Shown here piece after piece: positions 20,718 through 54,024 of a stretch of 64,000 nt of DNA. This DNA comes from Erysipelotrichaceae bacterium. GTDB taxonomy: Bacteria > Bacillota_I > Bacilli_A > Erysipelotrichales > Erysipelotrichaceae. The position numbers and the translations under genes are program-made. Position 1 is the stretch's first letter; each line of letters begins with the position of its first letter. The stretch covers positions 1 through 64,000 of the forward strand of contig JAFWGU010000019.1 of NCBI GenBank assembly GCA_017512285.1. The letters run 5' to 3'. Below the pieces are notes generated by a model. That model ran no database searches and had not been told where the DNA came from. It worked only from the letters and a program-made list of their open reading frames with translations.

Positions 20718-20820
20718 CGTTGCAGCTCTTAGGAGCTTCAACCGCACTTCATAAGGTCAAAAATGCCGCAAGGATACCTTATTAGGCGAGTCTAAGTAGA
20801 AAGATCAGGAGGTGTAATGC
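20718..20820 (+). promoter_or_regulatory. Ribosomal protein L21 leader
   Basis: A 100-base leader between the promoter and rplU, in the position of the Firmicute L21 leader RNA. It can form a GCTCTTAGGAGC hairpin at its 5' part and has conserved-looking segments before the AGGAGG. Such leaders are thought to bind L21 or a co-encoded protein to autoregulate the operon. The call rests on position and general form rather than a covariance match. Confidence 0.7.
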
Positions 20821-44000: not shown

Positions 44001-44011
44001 GTGCTTAATAA

Positions 44012-44180
44012 AACCACATAGAGGTAGCGACGCAGATGAGTATCCTCATGAGCCGGCAGGCAATGACTGAGGTGAAAGGTAACCGTCGCCGAACGGACAC
44101 AGCCGGCGGGCGTGTACGTGGGGGCATGGAGAACATTCATGTCACTCCTTCGTTAAGAAGAGGCGCTATTGCTTATGATC
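44012..44180 (+). promoter_or_regulatory. Lysine riboswitch (L box)
   Basis: The segment starts AGAGGTAGCGACGC and continues with AGATGAGTA. Later it carries GGTGAAAGG and CCGTCGCCGAA, the hallmark L-box core. It closes with CGCTATTG, which pairs with the 5' AGCG part of P1. The 170-base length fits the five-helix aptamer. With lysine bound, the downstream terminator (44197-44229) should form and shut off the ABC importer. Confidence 0.93.
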
Positions 44181-50302: not shown

Positions 50303-51141
50303 TGATCAGATTAGGCTCACACGTATCAATGAATGCTCCGGACTATGTTCTGGGATCCGTTGATGAAGCACTGTCATACGGTGCCAATGCCCTGATGCTG
50401 TATACCGGAGCCCCACAGAATTCCTTCCGGACACCGCTGGACAAGCTTAAGATAGCTGAAGGCAGGGAGAAATGGCTTTCATGCGGTTACAGAATGGAAG
50501 ACATGATCATTCACATGCCTTACATAATCAATCTGGCCAACACCGTCAAGGAAGGCGTTTACGACATGGGCAAGGAAGTTCTGCTAAAGGAAATGGCCAG
50601 AACAAAGGCCATCGGCGCCAGATACATGGTGCTTCATCCGGGCAGTGCCCTGACGGGAGACGTCAATGAATCGCTTGATCAGGTAGCCAGAGGCATAAAT
50701 GAAGTTCTGGAAGAATGTCCTTACGGGATCATCTGTCTGGAAACAATGGCCGGCAAGGGCAGTGAGGTAGGACGTGACTTTGCCCAGCTGCAGAGGATCA
50801 TATCTCAGGTCAGACTGCAGGATCACATCGGTGTCTGCTTTGATACCTGCCATACCCATGACGCAGGATATGACCTTACGCAGTTTGATAAGGTACTGGA
50901 TGAATTTGATGAGATCATCGGTTTGGATAAGCTGTACGTAATGCACATCAACGATTCCAAGAATGTCAGGGGCGCTCACAAGGACCGCCACGCCAACATA
51001 GGTGAAGGCGAGATTGGCTTTGAAACATTATATAAGATTGTACATAATGCCCGTCTGGACGATGTTCCAATGGCTCTTGAGACGCCATATGTAGGCGGCA
51101 AGGCTCCATATAAGGAAGAAATTGAAATGTTGTTGAAATAA
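50302..51141 (+). CDS. nfo: Deoxyribonuclease IV (endonuclease IV)
   Basis: 279 residues, TIM-barrel AP endonuclease. GSHVSMN, HPGS, GICLETMAGKG-like CLETMAGKG, CFDTCHTHDAGYD and HINDSKN contain the metal ligands. It cuts DNA 5' of abasic sites. One-base overlap with the helicase gene. Confidence 0.95.
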   Translation: MIRLGSHVSMNAPDYVLGSVDEALSYGANALMLYTGAPQNSFRTPLDKLKIAEGREKWLSCGYRMEDMIIHMPYIINLANTVKEGVYDMGKEVLLKEMARTKAIGARYMVLHPGSALTGDVNESLDQVARGINEVLEECPYGIICLETMAGKGSEVGRDFAQLQRIISQVRLQDHIGVCFDTCHTHDAGYDLTQFDKVLDEFDEIIGLDKLYVMHINDSKNVRGAHKDRHANIGEGEIGFETLYKIVHNARLDDVPMALETPYVGGKAPYKEEIEMLLK

Positions 51142-51164: not shown

Positions 51165-51194
51165 TTGACACATTCAATGAAAACAGTTTACAAT
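51165..51194 (+). promoter_or_regulatory. Promoter of the met leader-metQNI operon
   Basis: Consensus TTGACA (51165-51170), an 18-base spacer and TACAAT (51189-51194). Start near 51201, just before the leader ribosome-binding site. Confidence 0.75.
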
Positions 51195-51218
51195 ACAGAC
51201 AACAAGGAGATTCATCCC

Positions 51219-51299
51219 ATGAAGAGAAACAGCACAGCTATGATGATGGAAATGATGGCCATGCGCATGATGATGCGTGTTTCTTTTGATGGAAAATAA
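51219..51299 (+). CDS. Methionine-rich leader peptide (26 aa) of the metQNI operon
   Basis: AAGGAGA at 51204-51210 is followed nine bases later by ATG and an open frame of 26 codons ending TAA at 51297-51299. Ten codons are ATG: codon 1 and codons 8, 9, 10, 12, 13, 15, 17, 18 and 19. The remaining residues are mostly small or charged (Lys, Arg, Asn, Ser, Thr, Ala, Glu) and the peptide ends VSFDGK. Such enrichment, directly after a strong promoter and upstream of a terminator and a methionine importer, fits an attenuator peptide that senses charged elongator Met-tRNA. It should act in cis by ribosome position, not as a product. I know of no named family for it. Confidence 0.85.
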   Translation: MKRNSTAMMMEMMAMRMMMRVSFDGK

Positions 51300-51361
51300 T
51301 CCGATGTAATCTCATAGCCAAGTTTGAAGTCAGTAAAACAATGAACCGGAGATCATCGGAT
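51299..51361 (+). promoter_or_regulatory. Antiterminator hairpin of the met attenuator
   Basis: Arm B at 51299-51306 (ATCCGATG) pairs perfectly with 51354-51361 (CATCGGAT). Arm B continues at 51309-51313 (ATCTC), pairing with 51349-51353 (GAGAT) after a two-base bulge: 13 bp in total. The 3' arm takes two bases of the terminator stem (51349-51350) and its whole loop, so the two structures exclude each other. Arm B starts at the last base of the leader stop codon, so a terminating ribosome would cover it, while one stalled at Met codons would not. Confidence 0.8.
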
Positions 51362-51377
51362 GTCCGGTTTTGTTTTG
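51344..51377 (+). terminator. Rho-independent terminator (attenuator) before metQ
   Basis: AACCGGA (51344-51350) pairs with TCCGGTT (51363-51369), with possible extra ATC/GAT pairs in the loop, followed by TTTTGTTTT. It lies about 140 bases before metQ. Confidence 0.85.
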
Positions 51378-51396: not shown

Positions 51397-51468
51397 ATGA
51401 GCAGTTATTTACGAAGGTTGACTTATTCCAATTATGATTCAAAGCGAATGTGCAGCAGTGAGGACTGA
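51397..51468 (+). CDS. 23-codon ORF between attenuator and metQ
   Basis: GGGAAGGAAATTC precedes an ATG at 51397 and an open frame of 23 codons ending TGA at 51466-51468. The sequence is basic and Tyr/Ser-rich (MSSYLRRLTYSNYD...). It has a good ribosome-binding site, but length alone does not show that it is translated to a useful product. It could help keep the RNA between the attenuator and metQ covered by ribosomes. Confidence 0.35.
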   Translation: MSSYLRRLTYSNYDSKRMCSSED

Positions 51469-51514
51469 CACATTGGCACTTGTTGAATGAAAAAAGGAAA
51501 AAGGAGAAAAGAAA

Positions 51515-52354
51515 ATGAAAAAGACATTAACAGTTATATTAGCAGTATTATTATCACTTACACTGGCAGCCTGCGGCGGCAATGGCGGCAAGCAGGATGA
51601 AAAGGTCATCAAGGTCGGAGCCACATTGGTTCCACATGCTGAAATTCTCAAGAACGTCGTAGCTGACAAGCTGGCCAAGGACGGCTGGACACTTGAAGTA
51701 GTTGAATTCAATGACTACGTAACCCCGAATACCGCTCTGGAGGAAGGTGAACTTGATGCCAACTACTTCCAGACTCTCGGCTACATGAAGGATCAGAACG
51801 AAAACGGCGGACTGCATCTGACAGCCGTAGCCGGCGTACACATCGAACCAATGGGAATCTACTCAAAGAAATATGCATCACTGGATCAGATTCCGGATGG
51901 CGCAACGATCGGCGTTCCAAACGACACAGACAACTGCAACAGAGCTCTCGACTTACTGGCAGCCTGGTATCTGATCACCGGAACAGGCACACCGGAAGAA
52001 CTCAACAGCGATCCTGTAAAGAATCCTCATGGCTATAAGATCACTCTGATTGAAGCAGCCGGCCTGCCAAGATCACTGGATGACCTTGACGCAGCCGTAA
52101 TCAACGGCAACTATGCTCTGGAAGCCGGCTTACCGGAAACTTCACCGGCAGTACAGATCGAGGTATTCAACGCTGAAACAAGCGTACGCAGAACAAACTA
52201 CATCGTCGTAAAGCAGGGAAGCGAAAACTCAGAAAAGATTCAGGCTCTGGTAAAGGCCATCAACTCCAAGGAAGTTGAAGACTACATCAACAATACCTAT
52301 AAGGGTGCGGTCATTCCTTCATTCGTTGATGCTGAAGGCAAGCCATTGAACTAA
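51515..52354 (+). CDS. metQ: MetQ, methionine-binding lipoprotein
   Basis: 279 residues, NlpA/MetQ family. Lipoprotein signal with LAAC and lipidated Cys20. VGATLVPHAEIL, the EFNDYVTPN segment, ELDANYFQ and the GVHIEPMGIYS segment are typical. AAGGAG precedes the ATG. It delivers L- (and often D-) methionine to MetNI. Controlled by the upstream attenuator. Confidence 0.95.
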   Translation: MKKTLTVILAVLLSLTLAACGGNGGKQDEKVIKVGATLVPHAEILKNVVADKLAKDGWTLEVVEFNDYVTPNTALEEGELDANYFQTLGYMKDQNENGGLHLTAVAGVHIEPMGIYSKKYASLDQIPDGATIGVPNDTDNCNRALDLLAAWYLITGTGTPEELNSDPVKNPHGYKITLIEAAGLPRSLDDLDAAVINGNYALEAGLPETSPAVQIEVFNAETSVRRTNYIVVKQGSENSEKIQALVKAINSKEVEDYINNTYKGAVIPSFVDAEGKPLN

Positions 52355-52423: not shown

Positions 52424-53389
52424 ATGATTGAATTAAGGGATGTCAGAAAGAACTTTGATAACCTGGAAGTACTGAAGGGGATATCAATAACCATCAATGA
52501 TGGTGAAATATACGGAATAATAGGTCAGTCAGGTGCCGGCAAGAGCACTCTTTTGCGCTGCATCAACGGCCTTGAATCCTACCAGTCCGGTACGATAACC
52601 GTTGACGGTACCATCGTATCCCAGAAGGACAAGAACACCTTGCGCAGATTACAGCGTAACATGGGCATGATCTTCCAGAACTTCAATCTTCTGGAAAGAC
52701 TGGATGTCTATGATAATGTGGCGCTGCCGATGAAATTCTGGGGCATTAATGTCAGCAGTCCGGAATCAGTCAGAAGAATCGAAGAACTGATCAGACTGGT
52801 CGGTCTGGAAGACAAGAAGCATGCAAGGCCATCTGAGCTTTCGGGAGGCCAGAAGCAGCGTGTTGCCATAGCCAGAGCTTTGGTACTTGATCCTCAGATA
52901 ATCCTCTGTGACGAGGCCACAAGCGCCCTGGACCCGGCAATAACAAGAGAGATCCTGTCACTGTTACAGGAAATCAATGAAAAAATGGGCAAGACGATAA
53001 TCGTCGTTACTCACCAGATGGAAGTAGTAAAGCAGATCTGTCAGAGAGTATCATTTTTAAGAGACGGTACGGTACTGGCGGAAGGCAAGCCGGAAGACCT
53101 CTTCATTCACCCGATAAAGGAAGTTAAGGAATTCCTGCAGGAAGAAAGCGGATTATTGCCGACGAAGGGAACCAACATTCAGCTGTTCTTTACGGATAAG
53201 AGTTCTGATCCGGTCATCACAATGATGGCCAGGGAACTCGATCTGGATTTCTCCATCTGCTGGGGAAAGCTTGAGGACTTCCGTTCAAACGTCTATGGTT
53301 CACTGGTCATTAACGTAAAGGATGAGGATACTCAGAAGGTATGTGAGTATCTTGACAGAGAAAAGGTCAACTGGGAGGTGCTGAAGTAA
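52424..53389 (+). CDS. metN: MetN, methionine ABC transporter ATPase
   Basis: 321 residues from ATG 52424 after GAGGTG. Walker A GQSGAGKST, signature [15 protein letters not shown], Walker B ILCDEATSALDP. A C-terminal NIL (ACT-like) domain from about 245 contains FFTDKSSDPVI and LVINVKDED. In E. coli MetN this domain binds methionine and inhibits transport. Confidence 0.96.
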   Translation: MIELRDVRKNFDNLEVLKGISITINDGEIYGIIGQSGAGKSTLLRCINGLESYQSGTITVDGTIVSQKDKNTLRRLQRNMGMIFQNFNLLERLDVYDNVALPMKFWGINVSSPESVRRIEELIRLVGLEDKKHARPSELSGGQKQRVAIARALVLDPQIILCDEATSALDPAITREILSLLQEINEKMGKTIIVVTHQMEVVKQICQRVSFLRDGTVLAEGKPEDLFIHPIKEVKEFLQEESGLLPTKGTNIQLFFTDKSSDPVITMMARELDLDFSICWGKLEDFRSNVYGSLVINVKDEDTQKVCEYLDREKVNWEVLK

Positions 53390-54024
53390 TGTTACAGATC
53401 ATATTAAAGGCATCTCAGCAGACACTTTACATGGTATTCATGTCTACGTTGTTCTCAGTAATACTCGGATTCATTCCGGCAATAATTCTGACGCTTACCG
53501 CTGATGACGGTCTGAAGCCAAACAAGATCGTTTATGAGGTCTTAAGCTTCATCGTAAACGTATTCAGGAGTTTCCCGTTTGTCATCCTGATGGTCGTCAT
53601 CATTCCGCTGACAAGACTGATTGCGGGTACATCCATCGGTACCAATGCGGCAATCGTACCGCTGACGGTGTGTGCGATACCGTTCATTGCCAGAGTATTT
53701 GAAACCAGTCTCAGAGAGACCAACCCGGGTGTCATTGAGGCAGCCAGGTCATTTGGAGCTTCAGACTGGCAGATCCTGTTCAGGGTATATATCAAGGAAT
53801 CAATTCCAAGAATGATAAACGGAATCATTCTGCTGATCATCAATCTGCTGGGCTATTCAGCCATGGCCGGTACACTAGGTGGGGGAGGAATCGGAGACAT
53901 AGCCATCAGGTACGGCTATCAGAAATACTCAACACCGTATCTGGTCGTCTGTTCACTGGTACTGATCGTATTTGTACAGATAGTACAGATGATCGGCAAC
54001 TACATCTATAAGAAAATATCATAG
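53389..54024 (+). CDS. metI: MetI, methionine ABC transporter permease
   Basis: 211 residues, about five membrane segments, EAA loop with GVIEAARSFGASDWQI. One-base overlap with metN. Completes the MetQNI importer. Confidence 0.95.
   Translation: MLQIILKASQQTLYMVFMSTLFSVILGFIPAIILTLTADDGLKPNKIVYEVLSFIVNVFRSFPFVILMVVIIPLTRLIAGTSIGTNAAIVPLTVCAIPFIARVFETSLRETNPGVIEAARSFGASDWQILFRVYIKESIPRMINGIILLIINLLGYSAMAGTLGGGGIGDIAIRYGYQKYSTPYLVVCSLVLIVFVQIVQMIGNYIYKKIS

Follow-up and report, generated by a model that had tools for sequence, protein, structure and literature searches.

A methionine-rich leader peptide and a predicted ribosome-mediated attenuator ahead of the metQNI importer operon in Erysipelotrichaceae

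What controls a methionine importer operon whose leader contains a short open reading frame (ORF) crowded with methionine codons, followed by an intrinsic terminator? The question is raised by metQNI in a 64,000-nucleotide stretch of an Erysipelotrichaceae genome (hereafter the window), where close relatives mostly carry a T-box. From comparative sequence evidence, we consider it highly probable that metQNI is controlled by ribosome-mediated transcription attenuation in this leader, with charged elongator tRNA-Met as the signal sensed. Searches for MetQ covered 98 related genomes, the whole genus, 273 genomes of the family and GTDB contigs, most genomes compared being metagenome assemblies, and upstream regions were read where fetched. 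Twelve species (the window and 11 others) were analysed in detail, and further copies exist beyond these.

The leader and the importer genes

In the window, the leader and the importer genes lie on the forward strand. The promoter (51165..51194) consists of TTGACA (51165-51170) and TACAAT (51189-51194) separated by 18 nt, with a predicted start near 51200. It is followed by the Shine-Dalgarno (SD) sequence AAGGAGA (51204-51210), which together with the adjoining ATTCA (51204..51215) also serves as a pairing arm, arm A (GAGATTCATC). The leader ORF, MKRNSTAMMMEMMAMRMMMRVSFDGK, extends from the ATG at 51219 to the TAA at 51297-51299 (51219..51299) and has 26 codons, 10 of them Met; such a translatable short ORF with its SD is retained in relatives. 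Nine ATG codons fall within codons 8-19 (51240..51275), the proposed stalling site. At 3% Met, the chance of finding nine Met in 12 codons is about 4e-12. The cluster is the densest across the six frames of the window, the runner-up outside it having five Met, and ATGATGATGNNNATGATG has a single exact match in the 1.76-Mb genome.

The first base of arm B (ATCCGATGTAATCTC, 51299..51313) is also the last of the leader stop codon. Arm C (GAGATCATCGGAT, 51349..51361), made up mostly of the terminator loop plus inner stem, pairs with B over 13 bp, 8+5 around a 2-nt bulge. The intrinsic terminator (51344..51376) has an AACCGG/CCGGTT stem (51344-51369, -14.0 kcal/mol) and a T-tract to 51376. Folding of the 180-nt leader gave z = -4.4. 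The promoter, SD, ORF, stop, arms and terminator named in the first-pass annotation were all verified base for base.

Downstream are metQ (51515..52354), which encodes a methionine-binding lipoprotein (PF03180, E 1.3e-74; MetQ NCBIfam E 5e-47, below the curated cut-off); metN (52424..53389), for an ATPase with a NIL domain (PF09383; best match TIGR02314, E 4.5e-82, below cut-off); and metI (53389..54024), for a permease (NF008049 MetI, E 3.9e-56, below cut-off). Upstream of the leader is nfo. In one congener, G002 (L113), the nfo locus, the leader and a second mini-ORF are as in the window, yet metQ and metN downstream are non-orthologous. This arrangement indicates that the importer under one leader has undergone non-orthologous displacement, and the occurrence of one leader at the same locus before non-orthologous genes suggests that what it controls is methionine import.

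The second mini-ORF, MSSYLRRLTYSNYDSKRMCSSED (51398..51469), lies between the terminator and metQ. Its motif, [SA]N[YF]xxxRM, is conserved in nine other leader-bearing species, including G007, G002 and genus g26; R17 and M18 are invariant in 11 rows, and the motif is near the end of the peptide, often directly before the stop. The consensus is LLxx[SA]N[YF]xxxRM(C), with counterparts in L003, L113 and L261-L267 and a possible relative in G058; none turned up in the scanned relatives with a T-box. The mini-ORF may act as a second regulator, encode an arrest peptide or serve as a spacer by which ribosomes are kept on the RNA. A tandem two-peptide device, in which the Met-rich leader would control transcription and mini-ORF 2, as a new arrest or regulatory peptide, would control metQ translation or Rho access with methionine or a related metabolite as the signal, is a speculative and rather unlikely form of this idea.

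The searches also returned circularly permuted MetQ/NlpA lipoproteins, in which a signal peptide with a lipobox precedes the two parts of the canonical protein in swapped order, C-terminal before N-terminal. They are encoded at L113 (1153-2001, minus strand), L023 (1057-1929), L241-L260 and L261-L267, and have two different breakpoints, at about residues 165 and 130. Blastp confirmed 22 of them, with two swapped Pfam stretches, and the matches to all 22 PDB relatives fall into two stretches; an AlphaFold2 model of one permuted protein was of low confidence (pLDDT 61).

Distribution of the leader and the T-box background

A Met-rich leader with a terminator was found in four members of the window's genus: the window genome (G000), G006, G007 and G002, the last with the peptide MKRSYTVMMMDMQMMGMDMCASFNVVYPM. 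It also occurs in G023, from another genus of the family (MKRTGRMMDMMMCMMMADTTVRFTVSWK), and in 7/7 genomes of genus g26 (e.g., MKHLYSNAMMMDMMMDMGMPVCLSVSNV and MKKQQSVMMMAMAMDMRMCMSFKHD; the contig of G286 starts within its leader). A weak case, MTYFNAMMTMRMTMWDYNRFIAVGFGVC, comes from another family (G058). In the Lachnospiraceae, two species of the same genus (G656 and G657) have the leader MSSNRIERKEMAVMMMSMMCMCMHIHGSFVVP ahead of msrA-metQNI (L099, 2163-2330, and L102, 2102-2270, respectively); this putative attenuator is independent and ties methionine sulfoxide reductase to the same signal. In every relative that carries the leader a hairpin with a T-run is present. The Met cluster of relatives occupies the same codon range as in the window.

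Between G000 and G007, 0/30 nt changed in the Met codons versus 17/48 nt in the other leader codons (p = 1e-4), the Met codons being selectively kept. G007 also retains both promoter hexamers and their 18-nt spacing. Its counterpart of 51297-51316 (arm B and edges) is identical at 19/19 aligned bases, compared with 12/21 in the spacer.

When a leader HMM was run on 395 genomes of the class, the window's genome was the sole match at E <= 0.01; the device is therefore rare or too diverged for such a search. The same approach yielded one real copy and two weak matches in 397 Lachnospiraceae genomes. One weak match, L231, was rejected on inspection, as it had no leader arrangement. Also rejected was G061 (L185), where a Met-containing ORF and a terminator are present but without B:C pairing, and a conserved mini-ORF in G064 and G069 (L020/L024), M[TK]RMRMP..., which ends shortly before metQ without a terminator, was not counted. 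A short Cys/Met-rich ORF, MKHILKQGSRICRMCCTCQAGLDEI, was observed about 106 nt upstream of metQ in G050 (L029).

No Rfam element was detected at the leader; window-wide, the only matches were a lysine riboswitch (44011-44176) and a ribosomal protein L21 leader (20730-20803). For the T-box (RF00230), the stem I, specifier and antiterminator core had no match at the leader, and 0/12 T-boxes of the genome are located at metQ, these assignments resting on Rfam results. The SAM-I/S-box (RF00162) core likewise had no match there, and its only copy in the genome precedes metK. One of the 12 T-boxes is found at metG and has an AUG specifier, so that three methionine-related RNA devices occur in one genome: the predicted leader attenuator (metQNI), the T-box (metG) and the SAM-I riboswitch (metK). 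The earlier observation that neither an S-box nor a T-box core is present at this leader thus holds, and the closest relatives do have a T-box at this spot.

Indeed, a T-box is directly upstream of metQ in most of the remaining close relatives, three congeners (G003, G005 and G008) among them. In these three the specifier reads GAA-N-AUG-G, with AUG, the methionine codon, at the position that general T-box knowledge assigns to the specifier. In the MetQ tree, leader operons are nested among T-box operons, and well-supported branches require the leader label to change at least three times. In these gut and rumen bacteria, the leader has replaced the tRNA-sensing T-box that is common in relatives.

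Pairing arms and the proposed switch

Across lineages, arms B and C are wholly divergent in sequence with an unchanged layout; for instance, the two arms are GATATGTTCTC and GGGAACATATC in G288, as against TCGTGCCT and AGGCACGA in G656. The distance from the stop to arm B was proposed earlier as a check: B starts at -14 to +4 nt relative to the leader stop in 12/12 systems analysed. Among congeners, the loop CATCGGA is invariant in four, and the B core TCCGATGTAA is retained in G002 despite a terminator stem altered on both arms (CCGG/CCGG to CCAGGAG/CTCCTGG). When arms were exchanged among eight lineage representatives, of which those from one genus are not fully independent, the lowest total energy was given by each system's own pairing (1/40,320 permutations, the true one). 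Shuffles of single systems gave values <=0.05 in 9/12 systems, and a Fisher combination (one per lineage, genus g26 left out) gave p = 0.002; the G058 arms were not significant alone (p 0.27-0.34). For G000, the shuffle gave p 0.28 with C restricted to the 5' arm and loop and p 0.03 with the inner 3' side added. Because the simple G000 shuffle is not significant with C so restricted, the swap test is the stronger evidence for B:C.

A further pairing was missing from the first-pass annotation. The SD region of the leader (about 51205-51215) is itself complementary to arm B: GGAGATTCATC with GATGTAATCTC in G000, TTACATC with GATGTAA in G002, and GAAAACCCTAT with ATAGAGTTTT in G023. In a swap test of eight lineages, the fit of the systems' own A:B arms was reached by 9/40,320 permutations. 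The A:B helix corresponds to the 1:2 helix, which in trp-type attenuators imposes termination when the leader is not translated; the same effect is predicted here.

These elements, arms A, B, C and D among them, suggest the following mechanism. When methionine is ample, the leading ribosome would pass the Met cluster, reach the stop at 51297 and cover arm B; C would then pair with the 3' arm of the terminator, and transcription would end near 51376. When methionyl-tRNA is scarce, the ribosome would stall in codons 8-19 and leave B free to pair with C before the 3' arm is transcribed, and polymerase would continue into metQNI. If the leader is not translated, arm A, its own SD, would pair with B, and the terminator would form by default. 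The ORF, the selection on its Met codons, the four arms with their co-variation, the T-box replacement and the occurrence next to methionine importers are evident from sequence, whereas we infer the stalling at uncharged tRNA-Met, the kinetic capture of C by B, the direction of the response and termination without translation.

The effect of ribosome position was modelled by folding only the RNA downstream of the ribosome in a transcript cut off after C, with an assumed footprint reaching 13 nt past the first A-site base. The modelled P(B:C) was about 0.9-1 for an A site at nearly all Met codons of the cluster, and with the ribosome at the leader stop it dropped to 0-0.3, in both cases in 12/12 systems. 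With the 3' arm complete, the terminator is favoured at equilibrium in G000, G023 and G656 whatever the position of the ribosome (0.95-1.00), and the balance flips to read-through only in G007 and partly in G002 and G058. Since the terminator still wins at equilibrium in G000 with a stalled ribosome (P about 0.98; likewise in most others modelled), the switch there must be kinetic. Kinetic operation is usual for attenuators.

Alternative readings and known attenuators

The leader has the sequence features of a classical attenuator, i.e., a leader ORF, a codon cluster, a terminator, an exclusive B:C pairing and an A:B pairing. It would work like the trp and his attenuators, and it passes all the defining tests that are open to sequence. 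The attenuation reading of the first-pass annotation is strengthened by co-variation of B and C across lineages and by preservation of the Met codons between G000 and G007. The refuting condition set for it, a lack of conservation of the Met cluster or arms among relatives, was checked and did not hold.

The same data bear on three other explanations. That the terminator merely ends nfo, the Met-rich ORF being incidental or encoding a peptide with its own job, such as metal binding, is suggested by the position of nfo immediately upstream, on the same strand and ending at 51141. However, a promoter separates nfo from the leader, the leader of genus g26 follows a different gene, co-variation of B with C and of A with B requires an RNA switch, and the non-Met residues of the peptide change freely; we regard this explanation as highly improbable. 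An undescribed methionine- or SAM-binding riboswitch incorporating the ORF would be in keeping with the frequency of SAM riboswitches in Firmicutes and with the one at metK in this genome. It appears the least probable of the three, given that Rfam has no match at the leader and that the conserved parts are Met codons and arms fully divergent in sequence between lineages, without a common ligand-binding core.

It is also conceivable, if very unlikely, that the ATG run acts on initiation, through fMet supply or re-initiation at internal ATGs, and not on elongator tRNA-Met. All of the regulatory codons double as start codons, and the initiation rate matters because arm A overlaps the SD. Against this, the Met codons keep to a single frame of a short ORF and lie similarly far from its stop, the internal ATGs have no preceding SD, and the runs are broken by other codons. 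Under the favoured reading, a sensor of elongator tRNA-Met, the sensed amino-acid starvation should also limit initiation (fMet), and a non-monotonic response is therefore predicted.

The exchange of a T-box for a leader peptide is visible within one genus, in cells that still have a T-box for Met at metG and a SAM riboswitch at metK. The proposed attenuator also implies that ribosome and polymerase are sufficiently close for attenuation in Erysipelotrichaceae, which bears on the generality of uncoupling in Firmicutes. In Bacillus subtilis, transcription outruns translation (PMC7858274); if such uncoupling also held here, the coupling needed for an attenuator would be weakened.

The T-box at metQ in relatives serves the same gene, responds to the same signal, charging of Met-tRNA, and is terminator-based. 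It binds tRNA directly and does not need translation, and its core is absent from the window leader. With the trp, his, leu and ilv attenuators of Proteobacteria, the metQNI leader shares an SD, a short ORF rich in one codon, a stop codon that overlaps arm 2, an antiterminator and a terminator that exclude each other, a 1:2 helix and an operon for the same amino acid. It differs from them in its Met codons, in preceding an importer rather than biosynthesis genes, and in its T-box background; moreover, arm 1 of trp-type systems is in the coding part of the leader, whereas here it is the leader's own ribosome-binding site.

The earlier view that such attenuation is known mainly from Proteobacteria is outdated. 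In bacilli, His leader peptides precede hisS/hisZ at a position occupied in relatives by a T-box (Naville and Gautheret 2010, PMC2965389). This is likewise a Firmicutes leader in the place of a T-box, but the amino acid (histidine), the synthetase genes and the lineage differ. Experimentally supported ribosome-mediated attenuators of low-GC Gram-positives include Listeria Rli60 (PMC5864092) and Staphylococcus aureus ilv (PMC5794164), which concern branched-chain amino acids and a biosynthesis operon, in contrast to Met and an importer. In Streptomyces lividans, metL, upstream of metNIQ, is a weak leader prediction (PMC8079986). It also has Met codons in a leader upstream of a methionine importer, but few Met (and Cys) in 29 residues and a leaderless transcript, no Rho-independent terminator was found and co-variation was not shown.

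The earlier suggestion that a Met-leader attenuator may be new in this group of bacteria can be set beside the Streptomyces prediction; our literature search, with subscription journals and preprints largely outside it, found no other methionine leader peptide. The mechanism is therefore a known one, and its methionine specificity is found elsewhere only as that one weak prediction. Among the systems compared, the metQNI leader is the best-supported methionine-specific leader-peptide attenuator found.
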